Virus record (IMG/VR): IMGVR_UViG_3300008517_000126
Coordinates: 1-24,577 of that record
Reading direction: 5' to 3' (one strand)
Origin: a virus
Length of the DNA stretch: 24,577 nucleotides
Below are positions 393 through 20,509 of this stretch, piece by piece (position 1 is the first letter of the stretch; each line of letters opens with the position of its first letter). A model generated the notes under the pieces. The model did not search any database. It had not been told where the DNA came from and saw only the letters and a list, made by a program, of their open reading frames with translations. The position numbers and the translations under genes were made by a program.

Positions 393-467
393 TGGAAGCT
401 CCGCGGGGACTTGAACCCCGGTCTCGTCTTTTGCAGAGACGCGCCTTACCAACTTGGCCACGGAGCT
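393..467 (-). tRNA. tRNA-Cys (anticodon GCA)
   Basis: A 75-nt cloverleaf with acceptor AGCTCCG/CGGAGCT, the U73 discriminator typical of tRNA-Cys and encoded CCA. The anticodon stem CGTCT/AGACG encloses CTGCAAA, giving GCA. The gene abuts the 48-bp repeat array on its 5' side, and only 1 nt separates it from tRNA-Leu(CAA). Confidence 0.93.
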
Positions 468-481
468 TTGTTGACTTCGCC

Positions 482-976
482 CTGTCCATTCGGACAGAAA
501 TTAGTGCGCGAAGTTGTGTCCACTCCTCTCTATAGACTCGGACAGACTCGAGTACTCGAAGTTGTAGGCAATAATCCCTATGGACCTGGACAGAAAACAT
601 TGCCGACAACTTCGAACGCTAATCCCTGTGGACTAGGACAGAACTTAGTCGGCGAAGTTTCGTCCACTCTTTTCTGTCCACCGTGACAGAGACTTTTAAC
701 CACTCTTTCGACCACTCTTCTCTGTCCGGGCCGACAGAAATTATCGGCCACTCTTTTGCCCACTACTTTCTCTCCGTCGTGACAGAAATCTTCGACCACT
801 CTTTCGACCGTTCCGCTCTGTCCGACCGCACAGAGATTAGCCGTCAAAGTTTCGCGTGTTCTGCTCTGTCCGCCGCGACAGATTTGAGTCATCGAAACTT
901 TGCCCACTACTTTCTGTCCCGCTGGACAGGCCCGAGTCGACGAAGTTATGCTGACTTCTTTCTATCAGCTAGACAG
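482..976. repeat. Array of 11 dyads (CTGTC-N6-GACAG) at exact 48-bp spacing
   Basis: Eleven imperfect 16-bp inverted repeats start at 482, 530, 578, 626, 674, 722, 770, 818, 866, 914 and 962, an invariant 48-bp period. The last copy is 1 bp short. The GACAG arm is intact in ten of eleven copies (CACAG in the eighth). The left arm varies (CTGTC, CTATA, CTATG, CTGTG, CTCTC, CTATC) without compensating changes, which favours a protein-binding DNA site over an RNA hairpin. The six inner bases are freely variable. The 32-bp spacers are related, with a loose consensus of A-rich start, CGAAGTTTCG-like middle and CCACTCTTT-like end. The array fills the whole gap between tRNA-Cys and tRNA-Leu(UAG). 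Its tail runs up to the latter, and no gene is credible inside it. Confidence 0.9.
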
Positions 977-999
977 AAACTTATCGACCACTTTCGCGC

Positions 1000-1085
1000 T
1001 GGTAGGGGCGACAGGACTCGAACCTGCAATGCCTTTCGACAGTAGGGTCTAAGCCTACCGTGTATTCCAATTCCACCACGCCCCT
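1000..1085 (-). tRNA. tRNA-Leu (anticodon UAG)
   Basis: An 86-nt class II tRNA with acceptor AGGGGCG/CGCCCCT, discriminator A and encoded CCA. The anticodon stem GTAGG/CCTAC encloses CTTAGAC, giving UAG. An extended variable arm is present, unlike in the neighbouring tRNA-Leu(CAA). Its 3' end borders the last unit of the 48-bp array. Confidence 0.93.
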
Positions 1086-4463: not shown

Positions 4464-5140
4464 GGTGCATCCTCCCTTAGATCCGAACTTGCCGGCGGTG
4501 GCTCAGCCGGCAATAAAGGCCGCATCCCTAGACAGTCATCAAACAGTGCACCCGAGGTAATGATCTCGTCCGCGAGCCCGTACCCGATGGCCTCCACAGG
4601 GGTCAACCACATTTCACGGTCAATGTCATTCAGAATCTCGGCGCGCGTCTTCTTGACACCGCATTCGATGTAGGCGTCCACCAGAGCGTCACGTACCCGC
4701 TCGAACTCCTGCGTGCGGATGGCGATCTCCCTGACGTCGCCCTGCGCAACGCCGGACGGCAGGTGAAGCATCACGCGTGCGTGCTGATAGAGAAAGCGCT
4801 TAACGCCAGCCGCCAAGAGCAATGTCGCTGCACTGGCGCATGCCTGGCCCACCGTGTAGACCGGAGCCTTGCTCATGCGGATCGTGTCGTACAGCGCAAA
4901 CGCCGTGTCGATGTCGCCGCCTCCGCTCTCGATGAACAGCCAGATCGGTGCCTTTCGATCGAGATAGTTGTAGGCGAGAATTGATTCACAGATCTGTGTG
5001 GGACCCAGGTAGTCCGCCCGCATAGGCGAACCGATGATAGGTCCGCGTAGCGAGATCCGACGGCACTCCCGGGCCATCAAGGACTCGGCGGTTTCAAACT
5101 GTTCAACTCTTGAGCCATCGGCACGCCTGACAACTAGCAT
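4460..5140 (-). CDS. clpP: ClpP-like serine protease
   Basis: A 226-residue product of the Clp protease (S14) fold. The crotonase-like core shows FIESGGGDIDTAFALYD (residues 69-85), the nucleophile region with Ser103 in CASAATLL, His126 in VMLHLPSG and the acid in NDID (Asp172 or Asp174) before MWLTPVEAIGYGLADEI. This is a complete triad. There is no obvious ClpX-docking partner nearby. Phage ClpP homologues act either in head maturation or, away from structural genes as here, in proteome control; the latter fits this location better. The ATG has AAGGAGG 7 nt upstream and overlaps the RNase HII stop by 7 nt. A GGGTATAGT promoter-like site lies about 22 nt upstream, inside the RNase HII gene. 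The C-terminal 30 residues are Pro/acid-rich and outside the fold. Confidence 0.9.
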   Translation of the reverse strand: MLVVRRADGSRVEQFETAESLMARECRRISLRGPIIGSPMRADYLGPTQICESILAYNYLDRKAPIWLFIESGGGDIDTAFALYDTIRMSKAPVYTVGQACASAATLLLAAGVKRFLYQHARVMLHLPSGVAQGDVREIAIRTQEFERVRDALVDAYIECGVKKTRAEILNDIDREMWLTPVEAIGYGLADEIITSGALFDDCLGMRPLLPAEPPPASSDLREDAP

Positions 5141-5802
5141 TGGTCGTCCTCCTTCTGCTCAACTATACCCTGATCGCGGTATTTTTGAAGTGGACCGAAG
5201 CTAAATCTGTGCAAGGGCGTCGGGCCTAGTCGTTCAATAGCGTCCCGATGCTCCTTGGTGCCATAGCCCACGTTTCGCTCCCAGCCATAGCCCGGGTTAC
5301 CCGTGGCGAGCGTCCCCATGATGTGATCACGGATGACCTTGGCTATGATTGACGCAGCGGCCACCGTATAGCTTTGCGCGTCAGCGTGGTCCAGATAACA
5401 GCTCGGCGGCGGCAACAGCCCACGCAAACTCCGTCCGTCCACGATCGCAGCAATACGTCTGTCCGGCAACTGTCCAAGCAGTCTCGCGTATGCTTCTGTC
5501 ATCGCACGATTGCGCGCCTCATAGACACCGAGCTCATCGATCTCACGCGGCCAGATGTCAACCGTTACCCAGGCCTCGGCTTCCCGTGCGATCACGTCGG
5601 CCAACGCCTCACGAACCGCACGCGTCAACTTCTTGGAATCATCGAGCCTATCGTACCACTCTTGATAGCGCGGCTCCAGGATGACACCAGCGACCATCAC
5701 CGGACCAGCGAATGCGCCCATACCGACCTCGTCGAATCCGGCCACGAGCTGTGTATTGGTGCGCCCTATCAGCCAGTCCTCGAGCTCAAATGTTGGGCTC
5801 AT
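5134..5802 (-). CDS. rnhB: Ribonuclease HII
   Basis: A 222-residue RNase HII, the usual length. It cleaves the RNA strand of RNA/DNA hybrids, removing primers or single ribonucleotides. The active-site acids are visible: Asp24-Glu25 in AGFDEVGMGAFAGPV, Asp141 in HADAQSY and Asp159 in IIAKVIRD. Conserved DSKKLT (residues 55-60) and the C-terminal GYGTKEHRDAIERLGPTPLHR element complete the family signature. The ATG overlaps the stop of the small zinc protein as ATGA. With primase, helicase, polymerase and SSB in the same window it belongs to the replication set. The C-terminal tail contains G-I-V encoded by the embedded promoter-like GGTATAGT. Confidence 0.95.
   Translation of the reverse strand: MSPTFELEDWLIGRTNTQLVAGFDEVGMGAFAGPVMVAGVILEPRYQEWYDRLDDSKKLTRAVREALADVIAREAEAWVTVDIWPREIDELGVYEARNRAMTEAYARLLGQLPDRRIAAIVDGRSLRGLLPPPSCYLDHADAQSYTVAAASIIAKVIRDHIMGTLATGNPGYGWERNVGYGTKEHRDAIERLGPTPLHRFSFGPLQKYRDQGIVEQKEDDQC
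5162..5167 (-). promoter_or_regulatory. Promoter-like -10 element (GGGTATAGT class)
   Basis: ATCAGGGTATAGTTGAG lies in the last codons of the RNase HII gene, about 22 nt before the clpP-like ATG, leaving room for a short leader with AAGGAGG. No -35 match is visible. Confidence 0.55.
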
Positions 5803-7770: not shown

Positions 7771-8548
7771 AGTCCACGGCCTCCTCAGGCAGCTCCTTGC
7801 ACAGATAACGGCGCCAGCAGCGTTTGCACATCGGGTTTTGCTTGGTCTTTCGTGTTCGGGGGGCCACTAGATTCTGCCGCACGTACTTCCACGCCTCCGT
7901 GTGCGTCTTGATGATGGTCTGTACCAACTCGAGATCCACCTCGAGCCAGTAGATTGTACGACGTTGTGTGTTCTTCGACTCGAACAGAAGGAATCCGCGT
8001 AATCCGCCCTGGGAGTATGCGTACATGCACCACTGCGCGATGTAACCCCGGTACCCGGCATCGACCAACCGACACAAGGTCTCGTGCGGATCATCACTGG
8101 CATCCGGCAGCTGTTCAAATCGCTCTTCCTTAATGGACTTGATCTCACCGAGCAGCTTCTCCCCGGTGCCCGGGTCCTTGAGCAACACATCGTAGTGTCC
8201 GATGAGCGGCAAACTCTTAATGCTGCACTCATCCTGTGCGTCGAGCAAAATTCCGGTATCCGCCATCTCGTCCACGATCTCGTGCTCGATGGCCCGTCCG
8301 GTGGCAAAGATCCGCAGCACTCGTGGCGGATAGATCTGCGAATGGCCAAGTCCTTGCAGAGTAAGCGACCGTACACACGCATCGCCCGAGCCGCTCATGC
8401 GAAACTGATGAGGAATCGGCTCATGCCACAATACCTCGTGCGACATGATCGCATCGTTAAGACGCCTGAGCAACCAGTCAGCACCCGAGGCAGATCCCAT
8501 CCAGAGCTGCGCGACATGTGACCGCCGTCGTGGGTGAATTAGATCCAT
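7724..8548 (-). CDS. Cas4/RecB-like PD-(D/E)XK exonuclease with Fe-S cysteines
   Basis: A 274-residue product. The nuclease core shows GHYDVLL (Asp118) and LLGEIKSIK (Glu133, Lys135), followed by the QWCMYAYS helix that matches the QxxxY motif of the RecB family. Four cysteines are placed as in Cas4 and AddB: Cys58 near the N-terminus, then Cys239, Cys242 and Cys248 in CKRCWRRYLC, predicting a 4Fe-4S cluster. No cas1 or CRISPR array is near, so this is the phage recombination type that processes DNA ends for the adjacent RecA. It overlaps the upstream nuclease gene by 10 nt. Confidence 0.88.
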   Translation of the reverse strand: MDLIHPRRRSHVAQLWMGSASGADWLLRRLNDAIMSHEVLWHEPIPHQFRMSGSGDACVRSLTLQGLGHSQIYPPRVLRIFATGRAIEHEIVDEMADTGILLDAQDECSIKSLPLIGHYDVLLKDPGTGEKLLGEIKSIKEERFEQLPDASDDPHETLCRLVDAGYRGYIAQWCMYAYSQGGLRGFLLFESKNTQRRTIYWLEVDLELVQTIIKTHTEAWKYVRQNLVAPRTRKTKQNPMCKRCWRRYLCKELPEEAVDYDTVREIDQRCRSRR

Positions 8549-8895
8549 GGTAGCTTCGCCTTACAGCGCACGAGCCGTTGCTCCGCGGTCTGCATGTAGA
8601 TACTTATATGCGCGAGTAGTGCATACCGCAGCGAAGCCTGTTCAGTGATCGCCTCGTCTGTCACGTGAATCACCGGCAGATCATACAGCTCGAACAACCT
8701 TTCATCCCGTCTCTCGTCTGATCGACGATTGTGCTGAGGACCGTCGGCCTCGATGGCCACGTGCGCCTCGGGCACATAAATGTCAACTTGGAATGGCGGG
8801 AACGGAACCTCGTCCATTAGCTCGAGACCCCAATTTTGCAGCAACCGAGTCAACTCACGGTGCAGATCAGACATCTCTGTGACCGGTTCACTCAT
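8539..8895 (-). CDS. DUF559/Vsr-type PD-(D/E)XK endonuclease
   Basis: A 118-residue product. Residues 34-70 (FQVDIYVPEAHVAIEADGPQ and following) carry the Vsr-like core with Asp38, Glu49 and Asp51 plus the QH pair, then LFELYDLPVIHVTDEAI as the final strand. This family includes mismatch nickases and small endonucleases of unknown target. The ATG overlaps the recA stop as ATGA, so the two are made in fixed ratio, and the Cas4-like gene overlaps its end. A role in nicking recombination intermediates is a reasonable inference. Confidence 0.8.
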   Translation of the reverse strand: MSEPVTEMSDLHRELTRLLQNWGLELMDEVPFPPFQVDIYVPEAHVAIEADGPQHNRRSDERRDERLFELYDLPVIHVTDEAITEQASLRYALLAHISIYMQTAEQRLVRCKAKLPWI

Positions 8896-9920
8896 GGTGC
8901 CAACCTTATCAGTGCGGTCAACTGCTCGCGTAGCTCGTCATTCTCGCGCAACAGACGTTCAACCGCGTCTCGTCCGTGCACCTTCTTCTCGACCCCGGGC
9001 ACCGCATAATAGCCGGCCGTGACATCGATCACACGATGCTCGATGCCTAGGTTGACCAGTGCACCCGTCGGATCCACCTCGCCCGTGAAGTGGAACTTCA
9101 ATTCGGCCTCCTGCCACGGCGCCGCGAGCTTGTTCTTATCGGTGCGCAGTCGCAGCATGAACCCGACTCGCTTCGCGTCCTTCTCCTGTGCCAAAGCGGT
9201 AAAGTTCTCGTCATCGTGTTCAAAAGCGCCGGCCACGGAGGTCAGCCAGCGTCCGCGCCGCACGCGAACGATCGCTGTCACGTAGTGCTTGAGCGCCTTG
9301 CCCCCGGGCAGCGATTCGGGATTGCCAAACGTGACTCCCATCGACATCCGCAGCTGGTTGATAACCACGAGCGCCGTACCGTGATTCGCCGCGGTCGCCT
9401 TACCGATGCCCTCGGTAACCTTGCGCGGAAAGATGCCTCGGAAGTCCTGCTTCATCATCTCGGCCTCGACCTGCGTCTTCGGAATCAGCGCCGGCAGCGA
9501 GTCAACGACAATAATGGCCGGCTTGACCTGCTCCATCAGAGCGATGATCGCATCAAATGCTTCCTCAAGGTACAGTGGCCGCGCGATGATGAGCTTGCCC
9601 TTCTTTGTCTCAACACCGGTCGCCTCGAACCAGCGCCGGCTGTAGGTGTGCTCGGCGTCCATGTAGACCGCCGTCCCACCCTGCCGCTGCGCCGCCGCGA
9701 TGAATAGCTGCGCCAACAGGGTCTTGCCGCTTGACGGCTCGCCGATGATCATCGTGGTCCGACCGCGTGGCAGTCCACCACCCAGCATATCATCCACGGC
9801 CAGCATATCGAGCGTGATCAGCCCGGGCTCAAGCTCTTCGTCTTCCGGGTCGAAGAAAACCTGGCGCTTCGTGCGCTTGTTAAAACGCTCGCCAAAGGCG
9901 TCAAGCGGTACATCACCCAT
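8892..9920 (-). CDS. recA: RecA-like recombinase
   Basis: A 342-residue RecA/UvsX-family ATPase that pairs homologous DNA strands. Walker A is GEPSSGKT (residues 60-67). The catalytic Glu region is YMDAEHTY (about 87-94) and Walker B ends at Asp140 in AIIVVDSLPAL. The DNA-binding L2 region reads GNPESLPGGKALKHY, close to bacterial RecA. The N-terminal domain is short. The C-terminus ends in a helix (LRENDELREQLTALIRL) rather than the acidic tail of host RecA. The ATG has GGTAGGGGAGA upstream, and its GGGTATAGT promoter-like site directly follows the DNA polymerase stop codon. It heads a recombination operon of nucleases. Confidence 0.93.
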   Translation of the reverse strand: MGDVPLDAFGERFNKRTKRQVFFDPEDEELEPGLITLDMLAVDDMLGGGLPRGRTTMIIGEPSSGKTLLAQLFIAAAQRQGGTAVYMDAEHTYSRRWFEATGVETKKGKLIIARPLYLEEAFDAIIALMEQVKPAIIVVDSLPALIPKTQVEAEMMKQDFRGIFPRKVTEGIGKATAANHGTALVVINQLRMSMGVTFGNPESLPGGKALKHYVTAIVRVRRGRWLTSVAGAFEHDDENFTALAQEKDAKRVGFMLRLRTDKNKLAAPWQEAELKFHFTGEVDPTGALVNLGIEHRVIDVTAGYYAVPGVEKKVHGRDAVERLLRENDELREQLTALIRLAP

Positions 9921-9940
9921 GCGTGTTCTCCCCTACCTTT

Positions 9941-9946
9941 ACTATA
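9941..9946 (-). promoter_or_regulatory. Promoter-like -10 element (GGGTATAGT class) for recA
   Basis: AAGTAGGGTATAGTAAAG begins at the polA stop codon (TAG) and lies about 20 nt before the recA ATG. It occupies the only non-coding bases between the two genes. No -35 match is visible. Confidence 0.6.
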
Positions 9947-9948
9947 CC

Positions 9949-11760
9949 CTACTTCGCCGCGGCCCAGTTCGTCGTTGAATGCGTTACGCTGACTGTCACA
10001 GGTACGAGTAGATTGTAGGCTGTCATGGCCTCCTCAACGTCTCGTTCCTCTCGCGCGGATAGGCCATCGAGCCGTACTTCGTCGTGCACCTGCAATCGAA
10101 ATCCGTGCTCCGCGTTGGTCTCAACTATGCCGAGCCGGTCGATACGCACCATTGCGTCCTTGATGAGGTCAGCCGCCCAACCCTGAATGAGCGAGTTGAC
10201 CGCCTTGTAGGCTTCATCTGAGGTCAAGTGCCGCCGCCGTCCAAACTCGTTGTAGACGAAGTTTCGTAGCGCAACCGCACGCTGCACGCCGCTGAAGAGC
10301 TCCCGCGACCTGGGTGAGCGGTTGAAGAACGTGTCAATGATTGCACGCCCCTGCTTGGCATTTCGTCCGAGCTGCAGCCCGATGCGCCGACCGCTGGCTC
10401 CATAGATGATGGCCAGTCCCGTGGTCTTCGCCTTACGCCGCGTCTCCGTACCCTTCGGATGATCCTCAGGAGTCCCGCCCCAGATCCACGAAGCAACCTC
10501 AGAGTAGACATCCCTCTTATCGTGATACACCTGACACAGTCGCCGGTCCCCGGTATAGTGTGCATAGCCGCGCATCTCGATTTGGTCGTAGTCAAGCATG
10601 GTCATCGGAATCCCGGGGTCACAGATAAACGTCCGTCGTGCGACCAACGTGGTCGGATCCGCAACGTCCGGCCGCGTGACATTCTGAAGGTTCGGCTTTG
10701 AACAACTGAATCGTCCCGTGCGCGTCCCACACGAGAAGAAATCAGCGTGCACCCTGCCGTCCCACTGACTCCACTCGAGCGAGGAATTCACGTAGGATGA
10801 AAGCTGCTTGGCCACCGAACCGTAACGCAGGATCGGCGTCAGAATCTCGAGTTGTTCACCACCGGCGAGCAGCCACGCGAGCGTCTCAGCGTCCGTTGAC
10901 CACGCACCACCCCTGGTCTTCTTGTGCGTCGGCAGTCTCAAGTCTTCATAGAGCAACTTCCTGAGCTGCGCATCGGACCCGAGGTTGATATCCTTCTGTC
11001 CGGTCAACTTGGCCACAGTGGCCGTGATTTCCTCCAGCTCAGCGGTCATCGCAATCTGTTGCTGCTCAAGGAATTCTCGGTCGACGAGTACCCCGGCGGC
11101 CTCCATCTTGAGCAGGACCGTAGTCAGGTCTAGCTCCGTCTCGTAAAGGTCCCACAACGTTTGTCCCGCTTCGAGCTGTGGGGTCGCCTTGATTTGCGGC
11201 ACAAAAAGTTCGTCCAGACGCCACGTCAAGGTACAGTCCGTGCGGCAGTACGGCTCAAGCATCTCGTGTGGAATGTCGCCCCAGCACTTGACTCCGTCAG
11301 GCCGCGAACGCTTGTTAGCGCGGTTCGTCTTGATGTAGTCCTTGACCGCGGCTTCCTGCACATCGAGTGCCTCACCCGGAAACTCTGCAACTGCGCGCGG
11401 CTTCAATCCCTTGGGCTTGTTCTCATTGACGAGATGCGCCTGTGTCATCGTGTCGTGCACCCGTCGCTGATGGCGCACGCCGAATGACTTGCGCACCATG
11501 TGCAGGTCAAACTTAGCGTTGTGCGCGACCACACGCGGTCCGGTCGGTCCCAGCAACTCGCTGAGCAGCTCCTTCAGCCCGGGCGTCTTGGCGCGCACGT
11601 ATGCGCTTTGCTCGTAGGTAGGTCCCCACGCAAAACCCACGCTGACCACGTTGTCACGCAGCCACGATGGGCCGTCAGCACTGATCGGAGTGTCCGTCTC
11701 GGTGTCAAACGTGACGGTCTTAGCTGCCAGCAGCTTGCTTCGCAGCTGTGCGAGCTCCAT
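9949..11760 (-). CDS. polA: Family A DNA polymerase with 3'-5' exonuclease
   Basis: A 603-residue Pol I-type replicase without the 5' nuclease domain. The proofreading domain carries all DEDDy residues: Asp19/Glu21 in TFDTETD, Asp85 in HNAKFDLHMV and Tyr171/Asp175 in YCRTDCTL. Polymerase motif A is MLDYDQIEMRGYAH (Asp390), motif B is RRKAKTTGLAIIYG (Arg441 to Tyr453) and motif C is QVHDEV (His559-Asp560). The residue equivalent to E. coli Phe762 is Leu449. The ATG has GGAGG 4 nt upstream and overlaps the TS-family gene by 41 nt. A family A polymerase that tolerates modified cytosine would be required if the upstream operon makes it. Confidence 0.95.
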   Translation of the reverse strand: MELAQLRSKLLAAKTVTFDTETDTPISADGPSWLRDNVVSVGFAWGPTYEQSAYVRAKTPGLKELLSELLGPTGPRVVAHNAKFDLHMVRKSFGVRHQRRVHDTMTQAHLVNENKPKGLKPRAVAEFPGEALDVQEAAVKDYIKTNRANKRSRPDGVKCWGDIPHEMLEPYCRTDCTLTWRLDELFVPQIKATPQLEAGQTLWDLYETELDLTTVLLKMEAAGVLVDREFLEQQQIAMTAELEEITATVAKLTGQKDINLGSDAQLRKLLYEDLRLPTHKKTRGGAWSTDAETLAWLLAGGEQLEILTPILRYGSVAKQLSSYVNSSLEWSQWDGRVHADFFSCGTRTGRFSCSKPNLQNVTRPDVADPTTLVARRTFICDPGIPMTMLDYDQIEMRGYAHYTGDRRLCQVYHDKRDVYSEVASWIWGGTPEDHPKGTETRRKAKTTGLAIIYGASGRRIGLQLGRNAKQGRAIIDTFFNRSPRSRELFSGVQRAVALRNFVYNEFGRRRHLTSDEAYKAVNSLIQGWAADLIKDAMVRIDRLGIVETNAEHGFRLQVHDEVRLDGLSAREERDVEEAMTAYNLLVPVTVSVTHSTTNWAAAK

Positions 11761-15628: not shown

Positions 15629-16638
15629 CAGTCCCACCTCACAGGATGTGCTAGATCCGTTGTCCGTGTGTAGTCGTACACCAGATCGCTCCAGTAGTAT
15701 CCGTGCTGCGCGATGGTCTCACCGACCTCCTTGCGAACCGCGTTCCAGCCATGCAGCTCACCGAGGCACCGACGATCCCACATCATGTAGCGCGTTATCA
15801 AGAACGCTGACGTGTGTCCGCTGTACTTCCAATACGGTTCTGTCTTCTTGTAACAGGCCAACTCAGAGTCATGCCCACGCCCAGGATACTTGGTCTTGAG
15901 CGACTGCCGATAATTGCACAATGACACCTCAAAGGTAAACGGATCGAGCGGCTGGGGTCGTCCGATGAACGGATTCATCTCGGTACGCATGTCCTCAAAG
16001 ATGTCGAGAACCTCCGCCAGTGTCTCAGCGCTGTTGCCTCCGTTCAACACGGCGTCCTTGTCCGGTCTGAGAAAAGAGAGCGTCAGCCGAGGACTCCATG
16101 CTCCATCGGGCCGAAGGTCCGGCAGAGCCGCGGATACCACTTCGAGACGCCGCAATACCTCGAGTACCTTGATCGTCGAGTAACGCCCTGAAAAGTGAAT
16201 GTGCTCCCGGGCGCTGTTCCAGATTGCCTCATAGTCGGCGCGGTCAAGCTCAAACAGCTCGTCGTTGATCCAGTCCCTAAACGAACTGAGAAACCTGGTC
16301 AGTCGTGGCGCGCTCATGATAGCGCGGCGTTCCATTCTGATCGTCAGCAACGGCCACACCTTGTCGACCGCTGCACGAATCTCCTTGTCGCTGACGGTAG
16401 ACGGAAGCTCCTTCCAGAGCATCTCTCCGCATGCTACCGTGTAGATGGAGACCCAGCAAGCTGCTCGCCATGCACGCTCGGCCAGGTCCCACGTGCTGTC
16501 CTTGATCATGCGCACGATCAGTGATACCTGCGGATCGGGTCCGCCCAGATCCATCTCAAGGTTGACCCAGTCCCTGAAGCCGTTGCGATGATGTTCGACA
16601 TCGGCCGCGCAGAGACTGATTGTCGTGTGCTTAGACAT
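15628..16638 (-). CDS. Unknown 336-aa protein of the modification/inositol operon
   Basis: A 336-residue product from an ATG with AGGAGG 7 nt upstream, overlapping the oxidoreductase stop by 8 nt. A longer in-frame reading from 16710 is inside the oxidoreductase gene and has no ribosome site. The N-terminal two thirds are helical and rich in Trp and charged residues (WAERAW-type helices, RFLSSFRDWINDELFELD). The C-terminal 100 residues have a distinctive aromatic/Cys pattern: FTFEVSLCNYRQSLKTKYPG, ELACYKKTEPYWKYSGHTS and YMMWDRRCLGELHGWNAVRK. No known family is recognised. Position between cyclitol enzymes and the phosphatase, kinase and methyltransferase suggests a pathway-specific enzyme, possibly the transfer step. 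Confidence 0.75.
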   Translation of the reverse strand: MSKHTTISLCAADVEHHRNGFRDWVNLEMDLGGPDPQVSLIVRMIKDSTWDLAERAWRAACWVSIYTVACGEMLWKELPSTVSDKEIRAAVDKVWPLLTIRMERRAIMSAPRLTRFLSSFRDWINDELFELDRADYEAIWNSAREHIHFSGRYSTIKVLEVLRRLEVVSAALPDLRPDGAWSPRLTLSFLRPDKDAVLNGGNSAETLAEVLDIFEDMRTEMNPFIGRPQPLDPFTFEVSLCNYRQSLKTKYPGRGHDSELACYKKTEPYWKYSGHTSAFLITRYMMWDRRCLGELHGWNAVRKEVGETIAQHGYYWSDLVYDYTRTTDLAHPVRWD

Positions 16639-17560
16639 CTGGATACCTCCTCGCCTCATCGAGCAGTGCGACCGCCGCATATCCATCATCACCGACATGC
16701 GGCGCGCCACGCAGCTCCTTGAGAATGTCCAGCCACTCTCGCGCCCAGATATCTACCAGTGCGAATGTAGTATCTCCGTCCTCGAGCGTCAACCGCTGTG
16801 GACCATAACGCGCTTCGAGTCCGGACAGTGAACACCGTGCCTTAGTCCCGATCAACTTGACCGAGAACCGCGCCGGCCAGCAGACCCAGCTCGCGTGCAT
16901 GTTGACCAGTCCTGACTTTACGTCCAACAGCACGCGTGCGTCGTCCTCAATTTTGTCACTAAGTGCCCTCGTGTTATGAACCTCGGACTTCTGAACCGTT
17001 GCCTCACCCAGCAACCACCAGATGAGGTCAAGCACATGAATGCCCTGGTCCACCAGAACCCCGCCACCCGAGATGATGGGATCGCAACGCCACGAATCCG
17101 CAAAGCCCGCGACGCGCTGACTGCCGTACTCGACGGTCGTATAGACAACCGTACCGAGGTCGTCGTTCTGTATCATCTCACGTAACCGCTGCACGCCCGG
17201 GTAATGCCGCATATGAAAGCCTGAGCGCAACATTAAGTTTGCATCAGCCGCCGCGATGGCCAGCTCCAGGGCGTCATCACCGTTGAGCGCCAACGGCTTC
17301 TCACAGAGCACGTGCTGTCCACGTGACAGCGCCTCTCGCACGAGGTCGACGTGTGTAGCATTGGGCGTGGCTATGACGACAAGGTCGACATCGGAGGGCG
17401 GCTGTGTAAGCAACATACAAGATTGCCGCTCAGCAAACGCACGAGCCTTCTCAAAGTCCGTGTCGTAGATGCCAGCGAGCTCTATCCCGGGGGTCCGCCG
17501 CGCAGCCTCGGCGCGCCGCGTTCCCATGATGCCGGCACCGATGATTCCTACCTTGAGCAC
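16631..17560 (-). CDS. Gfo/Idh/MocA-family oxidoreductase (inositol dehydrogenase-like)
   Basis: A 309-residue NAD(P)-dependent dehydrogenase. The Rossmann loop is GIIGAGIMG (residues 5-13), the conserved EKPLAL at 87-92 supplies the catalytic Lys88, and GGGVLVDQGIHVLD (165-178) supplies the Asp171/His175 pair typical of inositol 2-dehydrogenase and glucose-fructose oxidoreductase relatives. Substrates in this family are cyclitols and sugars or sugar nucleotides. Two genes downstream of inositol-phosphate synthase, oxidation of an inositol to an inosose is the simplest guess. The GTG start has GGAGG 7 nt upstream and overlaps the SDR gene by 13 nt. Confidence 0.88.
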   Translation of the reverse strand: MLKVGIIGAGIMGTRRAEAARRTPGIELAGIYDTDFEKARAFAERQSCMLLTQPPSDVDLVVIATPNATHVDLVREALSRGQHVLCEKPLALNGDDALELAIAAADANLMLRSGFHMRHYPGVQRLREMIQNDDLGTVVYTTVEYGSQRVAGFADSWRCDPIISGGGVLVDQGIHVLDLIWWLLGEATVQKSEVHNTRALSDKIEDDARVLLDVKSGLVNMHASWVCWPARFSVKLIGTKARCSLSGLEARYGPQRLTLEDGDTTFALVDIWAREWLDILKELRGAPHVGDDGYAAVALLDEARRYPDV

Positions 17561-18282
17561 TGCACGTCCTCCTCGAGATAGAGTAGCTTCGGTTGCGGAT
17601 CATTGAGAACTATCGTAACCAGTCGCCCCACGTCCCAAGAGTTGGACCCGCCCCGAGTCCGCCTCGGCGCACTTACCTCGTGCATGTCTAGGTACTCTGC
17701 ACCGATGTCGCCGATGGAGATCACCCTGTTGCGCGCGTACATCGTCAGGTATTTCCCAGGCTCAATCAACGACACGTTGATCCCGAACGGTTCAACCTCG
17801 ACCGCCAGCGTCTCGGTGAGCGCCCTGAGCGCAGCCTTGCTCGCCGCGTATAGACCGGCGCCGAGCTTCGGCGTTACCGTCGAACCGATGTTGACCACGC
17901 GTCCGTGACCCTGTTCACGCATGCCCGGCAGCACAGCCTGGGTCACGCGCAGCGCGCCTAACACGTTGACCTCAAACTGTCGACGTGCCTCGTCAATGCT
18001 AACGGCCTCGACCGGGCCCCACAGCGCGTAGCCGGCGTTGTTCACGACCGCATCGAATGGCCCTAGCGTTTGAATCCGCGAGGTGATGCTGGGACTGGTC
18101 ACGTCAAAGCGATCCAACACCATTATGTTTAGACTGAGCGAACCGGCGATACTGTTGAGACAGATCGCGTCCTCGGTCTTTCGCACCGTCGCACAGACGG
18201 CCCAGCCTTGTGATTCCAGCGCGAAGGCGATGGTCCTACCGAACCCACTGGAACAGCCAGTGACAAGTACACGTCTACGCAT
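17548..18282 (-). CDS. Short-chain dehydrogenase/reductase
   Basis: A 244-residue classical SDR. It has cofactor motif TGCSSGFG (residues 8-15), NNAG (81-84), catalytic Ser134 in NIGSTV, Tyr145-x3-Lys149 in YAASKAA and the PG turn in LIEPGKYL. Arg33-34-type residues after the second strand (ATVRK) favour NADP(H). The substrate is not predictable from sequence; a hydroxyl or keto group on a cyclitol or sugar fits the neighbours. The start at 18282 is an ATG overlapping the ino1 stop by 8 nt with AAGGA upstream. The frame is open 12 codons further upstream without a better site. Confidence 0.9.
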
Positions 18283-19348
18283 CGCGAATAAATCCTTCCA
18301 GATCCTCACACGCCTCATCGTCGCTGAGCGGTTGCATGGGAGGTGACTTCATAAAGTACGCGGACGGGGCGACCAGCGGGCCCGACAGCCCGCGGTCGAG
18401 TCCCAGCTTGGCACAGCGGATAGCGTCGATGATCACGCCGCCCGAGTTGGGACTGTCGACAACCTCCAGCTTGAGCTCAAGGTTGACCGACGACCTGCCG
18501 AATCCGGTGCCCTCGATTCTGATGTGACACCACTTGCGATCCTTGAGCCAGGGAATGTGATCGCTGGGTCCAACGTGGATGTCGGTCTCTGGTAGATCAT
18601 AGTCCAGCTGACAGGTGACCGCCCGGGTCTTTGAAATCTTCTTTGATACGAGCCGCTCTCGTTCCAGCATGTTGAGAAAGTCGGTGTTGCCGCCGAAGTT
18701 GAGCTGGTAGGTACGGTCAATCTGCACACCGCGGTCCATGAAGAGCCGCGCTAGGACCCGGTGCAGAATGGTCGCGCCCACCTGCGACTTAACGTCGTCA
18801 CCGATGATCGGCAGCCCGGCCTTGACAAATCGGTCGGGCCAGTACTCGGTCGGGTCAGATGCGATAAACACCGGTATACAGTTGACAAAGGCACAACCGG
18901 CCGCGAGCGCCTGCTCCACGTACCACTTGGTGGCTTCCTCACTGCCGACCGGCAGATAGTTGAGAACAACGTCTGCGCCCGTCTCTTGCAATATCTCAAC
19001 GACGTCCGCACTCGCCCCCGGTGCCTTCTTGATGACCTGCTTGAGATACTTGCCCAGACTGTCGAGCGTTCTGCCGCGCGCCACGGTCACCCCGGTCGAC
19101 GGCACAGCACAGAACTTGGGCGTGTTATTGGGCGCCATAAAGATGGCCTCAGCCAGGTCCTTACCGACCTTGTTCTTGTCGATGTCGAAGGCGGCCACGA
19201 ATTCGATGTCGTTGATGTGATAGCCACCGAGGTTCGCGTGCATGACGCCGGGAATGGACTCGCCGTCCTCCACATCCCGGTAGTACCGCACCCCCTGAAT
19301 GAGCGCCGAGGCGCAGTTGCCGGCGCCGATGATCGCTACCCTGATCAT
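18275..19348 (-). CDS. ino1: myo-Inositol-1(3)-phosphate synthase
   Basis: A 357-residue NAD-dependent cyclase converting glucose 6-phosphate to inositol 1(3)-phosphate. The Rossmann motif is [14 protein letters not shown] (residues 6-19). The hallmark catalytic and tetramerisation segments are present: [49 protein letters not shown] with [11 protein letters not shown], and the C-terminal [18 protein letters not shown]. Length and motifs match the short actinobacterial/archaeal form rather than the longer eukaryotic one, which points to an actinobacterial source. The ATG is preceded by AAGGAG and GGGGGA. The gene heads the cyclitol part of the operon. Confidence 0.95.
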
Positions 19349-20001: not shown

Positions 20002-20509
20002 CCTTGAGCCTCTTGCGAAGTGGCGTCCTCTTCTCCTCGGACTTAGGCTTCTCCACGGGATCGTCGTCGCCGCCAGCATCCTCAGACTGCTTCTCAGCCT
20101 TCGGCGCCTTCTCAGCCTTCGGTGGCTTCTCAGGCTTCTCAGCCTTCGGCGCCTTCTCAGCCTTGCCGGCTGGCTTGCTACCGGACACCTGTTCCAAGAC
20201 GTCCTTATGACGCTTGACCTCGTGCGCGATCTTCATGATGGCCGTCTGCGCCTGCTCCTTGAACGCCGCGAACTCCTTGACCAACCCGGTACCCTCAACA
20301 GCCAGCCCGGTCGTGTCAGCAACGGTCTGCGCCAGCGTCTTCTCCGAACGTTCGGCTGTCTGGAGCGCAACCTCATCGCACTTCTTGAGCTGGGTTTCGA
20401 CATCGCCTTCCGTGTCGATGTCGGTGTATCGGATCTCGAGCTTGACCATCCCGTACTGCTGCCCGGGGATCGGCAGGGTCAATCCTGTCATCACCGAGAT
20501 CTTCGCCAT
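19985..20509 (-). CDS. Unknown protein with Lys/Pro/Ala-rich repeat tail
   Basis: A 174-residue product from an ATG with GAGGAGA upstream, starting 17 nt after the 3' end of tRNA-Trp. Residues 1-35 are beta-like (YGMVKLEIRYTDID) and 36-105 helical. From about 112 the chain is low complexity with KAEKAPKAEKPEKPP units, followed by an acidic stretch (EDAGGDDDPVE) and a basic end. This is probably a disordered, charge-blocked tail. No family is recognised. It follows the putative ssDNA-binding protein gene, so a DNA-linked role is possible. Confidence 0.75.
   Translation of the reverse strand: MAKISVMTGLTLPIPGQQYGMVKLEIRYTDIDTEGDVETQLKKCDEVALQTAERSEKTLAQTVADTTGLAVEGTGLVKEFAAFKEQAQTAIMKIAHEVKRHKDVLEQVSGSKPAGKAEKAPKAEKPEKPPKAEKAPKAEKQSEDAGGDDDPVEKPKSEEKRTPLRKRLKGESED

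Follow-up and report, generated by a model that had tools for sequence, protein, structure and literature searches.

The array and its flanks

The stretch of DNA analysed here, called the window, is a 24,577-bp IMG/VR viral fragment. One cluster in it comprises 21 tRNA genes, each on the minus strand, and genes for replication, nucleotide and inositol-phosphate functions lie on the same strand. The gap between the tRNA-Cys and tRNA-Leu genes is filled by an array of eleven palindromic units, an arrangement that the initial annotation had described and that the predicted tRNA boundaries bear out. Since all tRNAs are co-oriented, co-transcription of the array with them is a plausible prediction from gene orientation. 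The features are as follows.

393..467, minus strand: tRNA-Cys (gca), called by ARAGORN and Rfam; one flank of the array
474..985, no strand assigned (as for all dyads below): the complete array; each of its eleven 48-bp units consists of a 12-bp half-site, N8, the half-site inverted (12 bp) and a 16-bp spacer; lag-48 identity 0.59
482..497: dyad 1, CTGTCCATTCGGACAG, perfect; full palindrome 474-505
530..545: dyad 2, two mismatches
578..593: dyad 3, two mismatches; together with unit 4 it gives the best match (570-649) of model R2, whose training set excluded the window
626..641: dyad 4, one mismatch
674..689: dyad 5, perfect
722..737: dyad 6, perfect
770..785: dyad 7, one mismatch
818..833: dyad 8, one mismatch
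866..881: dyad 9, perfect
914..929: dyad 10, perfect
962..976: dyad 11, CTATC-N5-GACAG; start in register, 1-nt deletion inside the dyad
1000..1085, minus strand: tRNA-Leu (tag), called by ARAGORN and Rfam; other flank of the array

All eleven dyads start every 48 bp from 482 to 962, as initially reported. The accompanying statement that the series contains no indel holds for units 1-10 but not for the eleventh dyad, which has lost one nucleotide internally. Measured against CTGTC-N6-GACAG, dyads 1-10 comprise five perfect copies, three with one mismatch and two with two mismatches, and the mean identity among units is ~56%. Self-identity of the array is 0.589 at lag 48, 0.555 at lag 96 and 0.528 at lag 144, and no other lag between 5 and 149 exceeds 0.36. 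The longest run of sites 48 bp apart is 10 in the window, versus 1 across 100 first-order Markov versions. The whole window holds 24 sites with at most two mismatches against an expected mean of 15.6, a count that is only marginally unusual by itself; the extraordinary feature is the regular spacing, not the number of sites.

Dyad symmetry runs past the 5-bp arms, and comparison with relatives reveals a conserved half-site of 12 bp, about ACAGAAATTAGT; two inverted copies enclose N8, and a 16-bp spacer completes the unit (12 + 8 + 12 + 16 = 48). The half-site consensus in the window is ACAGAGATTAGT. These half-sites are AT-rich, with a GC content of 0.396 versus 0.629 for N8 plus spacer in the array and 58.7% for the record. 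The half-site being 12 bp and not 5, the distance between half-site centres is 20 bp inside a dyad and 28 bp from one dyad to the next, which corrects the earlier description of centres about one helical turn apart. Because 48 bp corresponds to ~4.6 helical turns, neighbouring dyads would, by arithmetic, lie on roughly opposite faces of the helix.

A protein-coding repeat was rejected, with 3-8 stops in every frame and a 3-periodicity (p=0.054) that matches no open frame; a 16-residue peptide in frames of the related contigs L154 and L153 is a mere translation of the palindrome. Elsewhere in the window, genes for a Gfo/Idh/MocA oxidoreductase, a short-chain dehydrogenase and a myo-inositol-1-phosphate synthase lie consecutively (16631-19348), and the synthase has many close viral relatives (identity up to 75%). 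A ribonuclease HII gene (5134-5802; Pfam PF01351, E 2e-30) adjoins a ClpP-like protease gene, and 9/18-bp tandem repeats within an ORF (20090-20164) encode a lysine-/proline-rich repeat (KAPKAEK-like).

Relatives in other replicons

The array almost certainly belongs to a real family. Its architecture and half-site are common to the window and five other replicon groups (six in all), namely the contigs L151/L154/L167, the contig L153, the Bacteroides phages BU183P1 and BU183P2, an Altererythrobacter MAG contig (L155) and a gammaproteobacterial prophage (L212). L151/L154, L153 and L155 came from scanning viral and cellular contigs for a pattern of fixed period, and a further pattern scan brought in L167 along with a second L153 array. 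A blastn query with the L154 array picked up BU183P1 and BU183P2 at E 0.002, weak evidence if taken alone; the window array had no blastn match among phages. BU183P1 and BU183P2 are isolates with complete genomes, and the other array-bearing viral contigs are fragments.

Two models were used to search for the array. R1 was trained on units of the window, L151, L153 and L155, leaving BU183P1 outside the training set, and over 86 sources (1.54 Mb) all of its matches at E<1 fell inside array loci, BU183P1 included. R2 was built without any window sequence, and among 32 sources it matched only the window (E 0.004) and BU183P1. A genome search with R1 across ~1,150 genomes of three classes, under strict filters that make the counts lower bounds, returned at least 1/385 in Alphaproteobacteria (an already-known MAG), 0/395 in Bacteroidia and 1/369 in Gammaproteobacteria. 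The gammaproteobacterial array in L212 (9062-9337) was newly found and is a diverged array of about six units. Given sampling by narrow patterns, the family is probably larger than sampled. In the open-access literature we found no description of it, which does not by itself prove novelty, and a sequence-text search of papers returned only unrelated chance strings.

Whether the period persists in relatives had been proposed as a check, with frequent indels between units as the outcome that would speak against a phased array. Period and half-site are kept, at 48 or 49 bp, and indels are occasional: BU183P1 has a 49-bp period, L155 mixes 48 and 49 bp, and L153 and L212 carry insertions of +10 and about +5. 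Copy number varies among near-identical relatives, with ~6 units in L151, ~5 in L154 and ~2 in L167. The spacer centre in L153, L151 and L212 is often TTATAA, CTATAG or CAATAA, giving a second weak dyad centre 24 bp away. L153 also carries a CRISPR-like array (9529-9963) of seven 29-bp repeats at 59-67 bp spacing, on the same contig as its two palindrome arrays and near a TnpB-like ORF (10166-11533).

The relatives also bear on the idea of an operator array or repressor sponge, composed for example of LexA-type boxes or of stoperator-like phage repressor sites. The CTGT-N8-ACAG core of the window array equals the gammaproteobacterial LexA box pattern. However, the half-site is 12 bp long and the shared motif extends to AAATTAGT, with arms longer than those of a LexA box; the CTGT core is altered in relatives (AGAGAAACTAAG, GCACAAATTAAC) and is not kept in BU183P1 or L212, and no comparable sites were found elsewhere in the window. 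A LexA box cluster was rejected on this evidence. Each sequence examined has array sites at only one or two loci, which makes the sponge, one of the roles first listed, less likely; an operator function of any such kind is very unlikely.

Two similar-looking features proved to be different things. The 48-bp periodicity in G001, the closest colinear relative of the window, is a 16-residue protein repeat and not an array; it is coding (L184 10697-11359, equal to G001 30697-31359), with QASWAELEVPT-like repeats in a structural gene region. The CTGTC-N6-GACAG pairs in viral contigs L037-L052 belong mostly to TGTCA-type dyads whose spacing is different or irregular. Distinct clusters of ACTGTCA..TGACAGT-type dyads occur in L041, L042, L048 and L050, with starts mostly 21-26 bp apart, and in L043/L044, with starts 24-36 bp apart.

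Selection, and recognition as DNA or RNA

The half-sites are under selection. Among the units of the window array, divergence is 0.064 in the CTGT/ACAG core versus 0.439 overall, a degree of core conservation that none of 1,000 trials of neutral repeat simulation reached, with a tree and with a star alike. Column variance exceeds the neutral expectation in the same two settings (P 0.001 on the tree and <0.001 on the star). About 131 substitutions were inferred among units 1-10 (FastTree; 2.73 per site over 48 sites) against zero indels, although how improbable this is depends on the assumed indel rate.

A rival to recognition at the DNA level is that the array acts as RNA, with 12-bp hairpins in a tRNA or late mRNA transcript that protect, process or space the transcript. 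The arrays sit in gaps between co-oriented genes, and the window array folds far more stably than dinucleotide shuffles (z -10.6 on the minus, tRNA-coding strand and -7.1 on the plus strand). However, column-shuffled arrays that keep the palindromic consensus fold equally well (z -0.4 and -0.7), so the stable fold is fully explained by that consensus. An arm does not pair better with its own partner than with arms from other units: the window has 72 Watson-Crick pairs versus 75 expected from between-unit pairing (p=0.88), in agreement with the original observation that arms mutate without compensation, and the same comparison gives p=1.0 in BU183P1 and a marginal signal in L153 (p=0.044). Across loci, some pairs have changed on both sides and 0/500 shuffles reach the arm covariation score, but the score is confounded by related and overlapping rows, and the same signal is expected from palindromic protein sites drifting between phages. 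In the Rfam search only tRNAs reached the gathering score, and the array matched no family, with nothing credible in 482-976. A giant nested hairpin joining distant units was rejected separately, the half-unit pairing matrix having no anti-diagonal.

Because the arms do not covary and the fold is explained by the consensus, DNA-level recognition is favoured as the simpler reading, and a role as RNA is unlikely. The array is probably a DNA-level site of some kind. The initial proposal of geometry-constrained dyad sites for a multimeric protein, and not RNA hairpins, is supported by core conservation beyond neutral simulations, by the lack of arm covariation and by a period and half-site kept in unrelated phages.

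Terminase neighbours and a proposed packaging role

Flanking genes were called by PHROG and Pfam scans. Four loci have readable flanks, the L155 array being cut off where its contig stops, and at each of the four (4/4) the array neighbours TerS, TerL or portal genes. The order is TerS, array, TerL in both L154 and BU183P1, and TerS, TerL, array, portal, array, head gene in L153. In BU183P1, whose laboratory host is Bacteroides uniformis, the array spans record positions of about 34,648 to 240 and gene 49 encodes TerS. In L212, which R1 found blind to flanking genes, the array directly follows two TerS-like ORFs (phrog_309, 1.8e-16; phrog_1206, 5.9e-6) and a head morphogenesis gene. These two ORFs are consecutive (8098-9057) with no TerL seen nearby, and L212 is perhaps a decayed prophage. 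By our own estimate, taking 2-4 of ~50 gaps per phage to adjoin terminase genes, the chance of 4/4 terminase linkage is of the order of 1e-5 to 1e-4, or ~1e-4 to 1e-3 if L153 and L212 are counted once, these two of the four loci sharing TerS and head-gene families (phrog_309 and phrog_241 are common to both). No TerS similarity was detected between L154 and BU183P1 or between L153 and BU183P1. With no TerS similarity detected and half-sites nevertheless agreeing, either TerS specificity has converged, or the array has been swapped between phages, or another factor reads it.

The window record itself contains no terminase gene, and the layout around its tRNA cluster has to be read from relatives. 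G001 is colinear with the replication region of the window (51-75% amino acid identity for most shared genes), and its contig breaks off within the polymerase gene, short of the tRNA cluster. G001 in turn shares a structural module with G002 (about 37-77%). The order in G002 is phosphoesterase, tRNA cluster, ClpP-like protease, TerS candidate, TerL and portal. The last three are found ~7-8 kb downstream of the G002 tRNA cluster (68.4-70.2 kb), TerL at ~8 kb, and the TerS candidate is named from position and sequence, having no PHROG hit. Phosphoesterase, ClpP-like protease and tRNA cluster are all present in the window, the tRNA cluster last. Terminase genes are therefore expected not far beyond its left end, a prediction drawn from one relative. 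R1 detected no array in G002.

These neighbours weigh on two further explanations. The array could be a replication origin or a partition (centromere-like) site for a phage initiator or segregation protein. Regular iteron-like arrays are typical of such sites, and a restriction to one or two loci per sequence fits them. Yet terminase, portal and head genes surround the four readable arrays, no replication or partition gene adjoins any of them, and no ParA/ParB was found among the window proteins scanned; we consider this reading improbable. A selfish or neutral palindromic tandem repeat, spreading between phages and growing or shrinking by slippage, would account for the variable copy number in near-identical L151, L154 and L167, for a half-site common to unrelated replicons and for the absence of an array from G002. 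It does not sit well with a strongly conserved core amid diverging spacers, with AT-rich half-sites kept in a GC-rich genome or with a position that recurs at terminase genes, and we regard it as similarly improbable.

Among the roles initially listed, terminase linkage favours a packaging site, and our main reading is that the array is a pac-like terminase-loading region that marks the phage genome for packaging (probability roughly 0.45). In this model a dimer or ring of HTH domains would bind successive dyads cooperatively, the array being an extended cis-acting DNA element with its sites at a constant 48-bp spacing. The protein loading onto it may be a small terminase or an accessory packaging factor that partners it, and two units (96 bp) come close to the ~100 bp of bendable DNA proposed to wrap a TerS ring (PMC4737164). 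The loaded array would then present nearby DNA to TerL for the first cut, after which the head would be filled.

Several observations count against packaging. The window carries no terminase gene and G002, the only guide to its layout, lacks a detectable array; L153 has two arrays around the portal gene; and half-sites that agree despite no similarity among the TerS compared are odd for TerS-specific sites. Known TerS-pac binding is mostly weak and non-specific (PMC9611059, PMC4737164). A variant that we consider rather unlikely is a portable packaging signal, in which a shared factor, either encoded by the host or co-transferred, would recognise the array and bring the genome to the terminase, hence the same half-site and 48-bp lattice in unrelated tailed phages with unrelated TerS. 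How small terminases pick the viral genome from cell DNA is unsettled. If the arrays beside terminase genes are true packaging sites, they would provide a strong recognition substrate that lends itself to testing, along with a sequence feature by which to locate packaging sites in uncultured phages, and BU183P1 and BU183P2 are isolates in which the packaging idea can be tested.

Among known systems, lambda cosB and P1 pac contain several repeated recognition elements for the small terminase or Pac protein near the cut site; these are fewer, shorter and unevenly spaced compared with the array, at which no cohesive-end site was identified. The stoperators of cluster A mycobacteriophages also repeat a phage DNA-binding site many times, as asymmetric copies scattered over the genome, whereas the sites here are palindromic, in tandem and confined to one locus. 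A CRISPR array was rejected, since units only ~56% identical with related spacers contrast with near-identical repeats and unrelated spacers. TIGR stem-loop arrays (PMC12045711) are also regular viral palindrome arrays of 5-15 units, but here the palindrome is the conserved part and the spacers are not independent guides, being nearly identical between L151 units and slowly diverging in the window. A TIGR-Tas array was rejected because there are no two variable spacers per unit and no Nop domain (PF01798) occurs in the window record, in G001, in the phage records with arrays or in the G028 MAG, several of which are fragments. The headful start site pac of SPP1/SF6 is likewise a non-coding cis site with repeats at terminase genes. 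The SPP1 pac region bears direct repeats, grouped in three sets, at the TerS gene, with weak TerS-repeat specificity (PMC4737164), whereas the arrays described here consist of 5-11 palindromes on a 48-bp lattice as putative binding sites for TerS.
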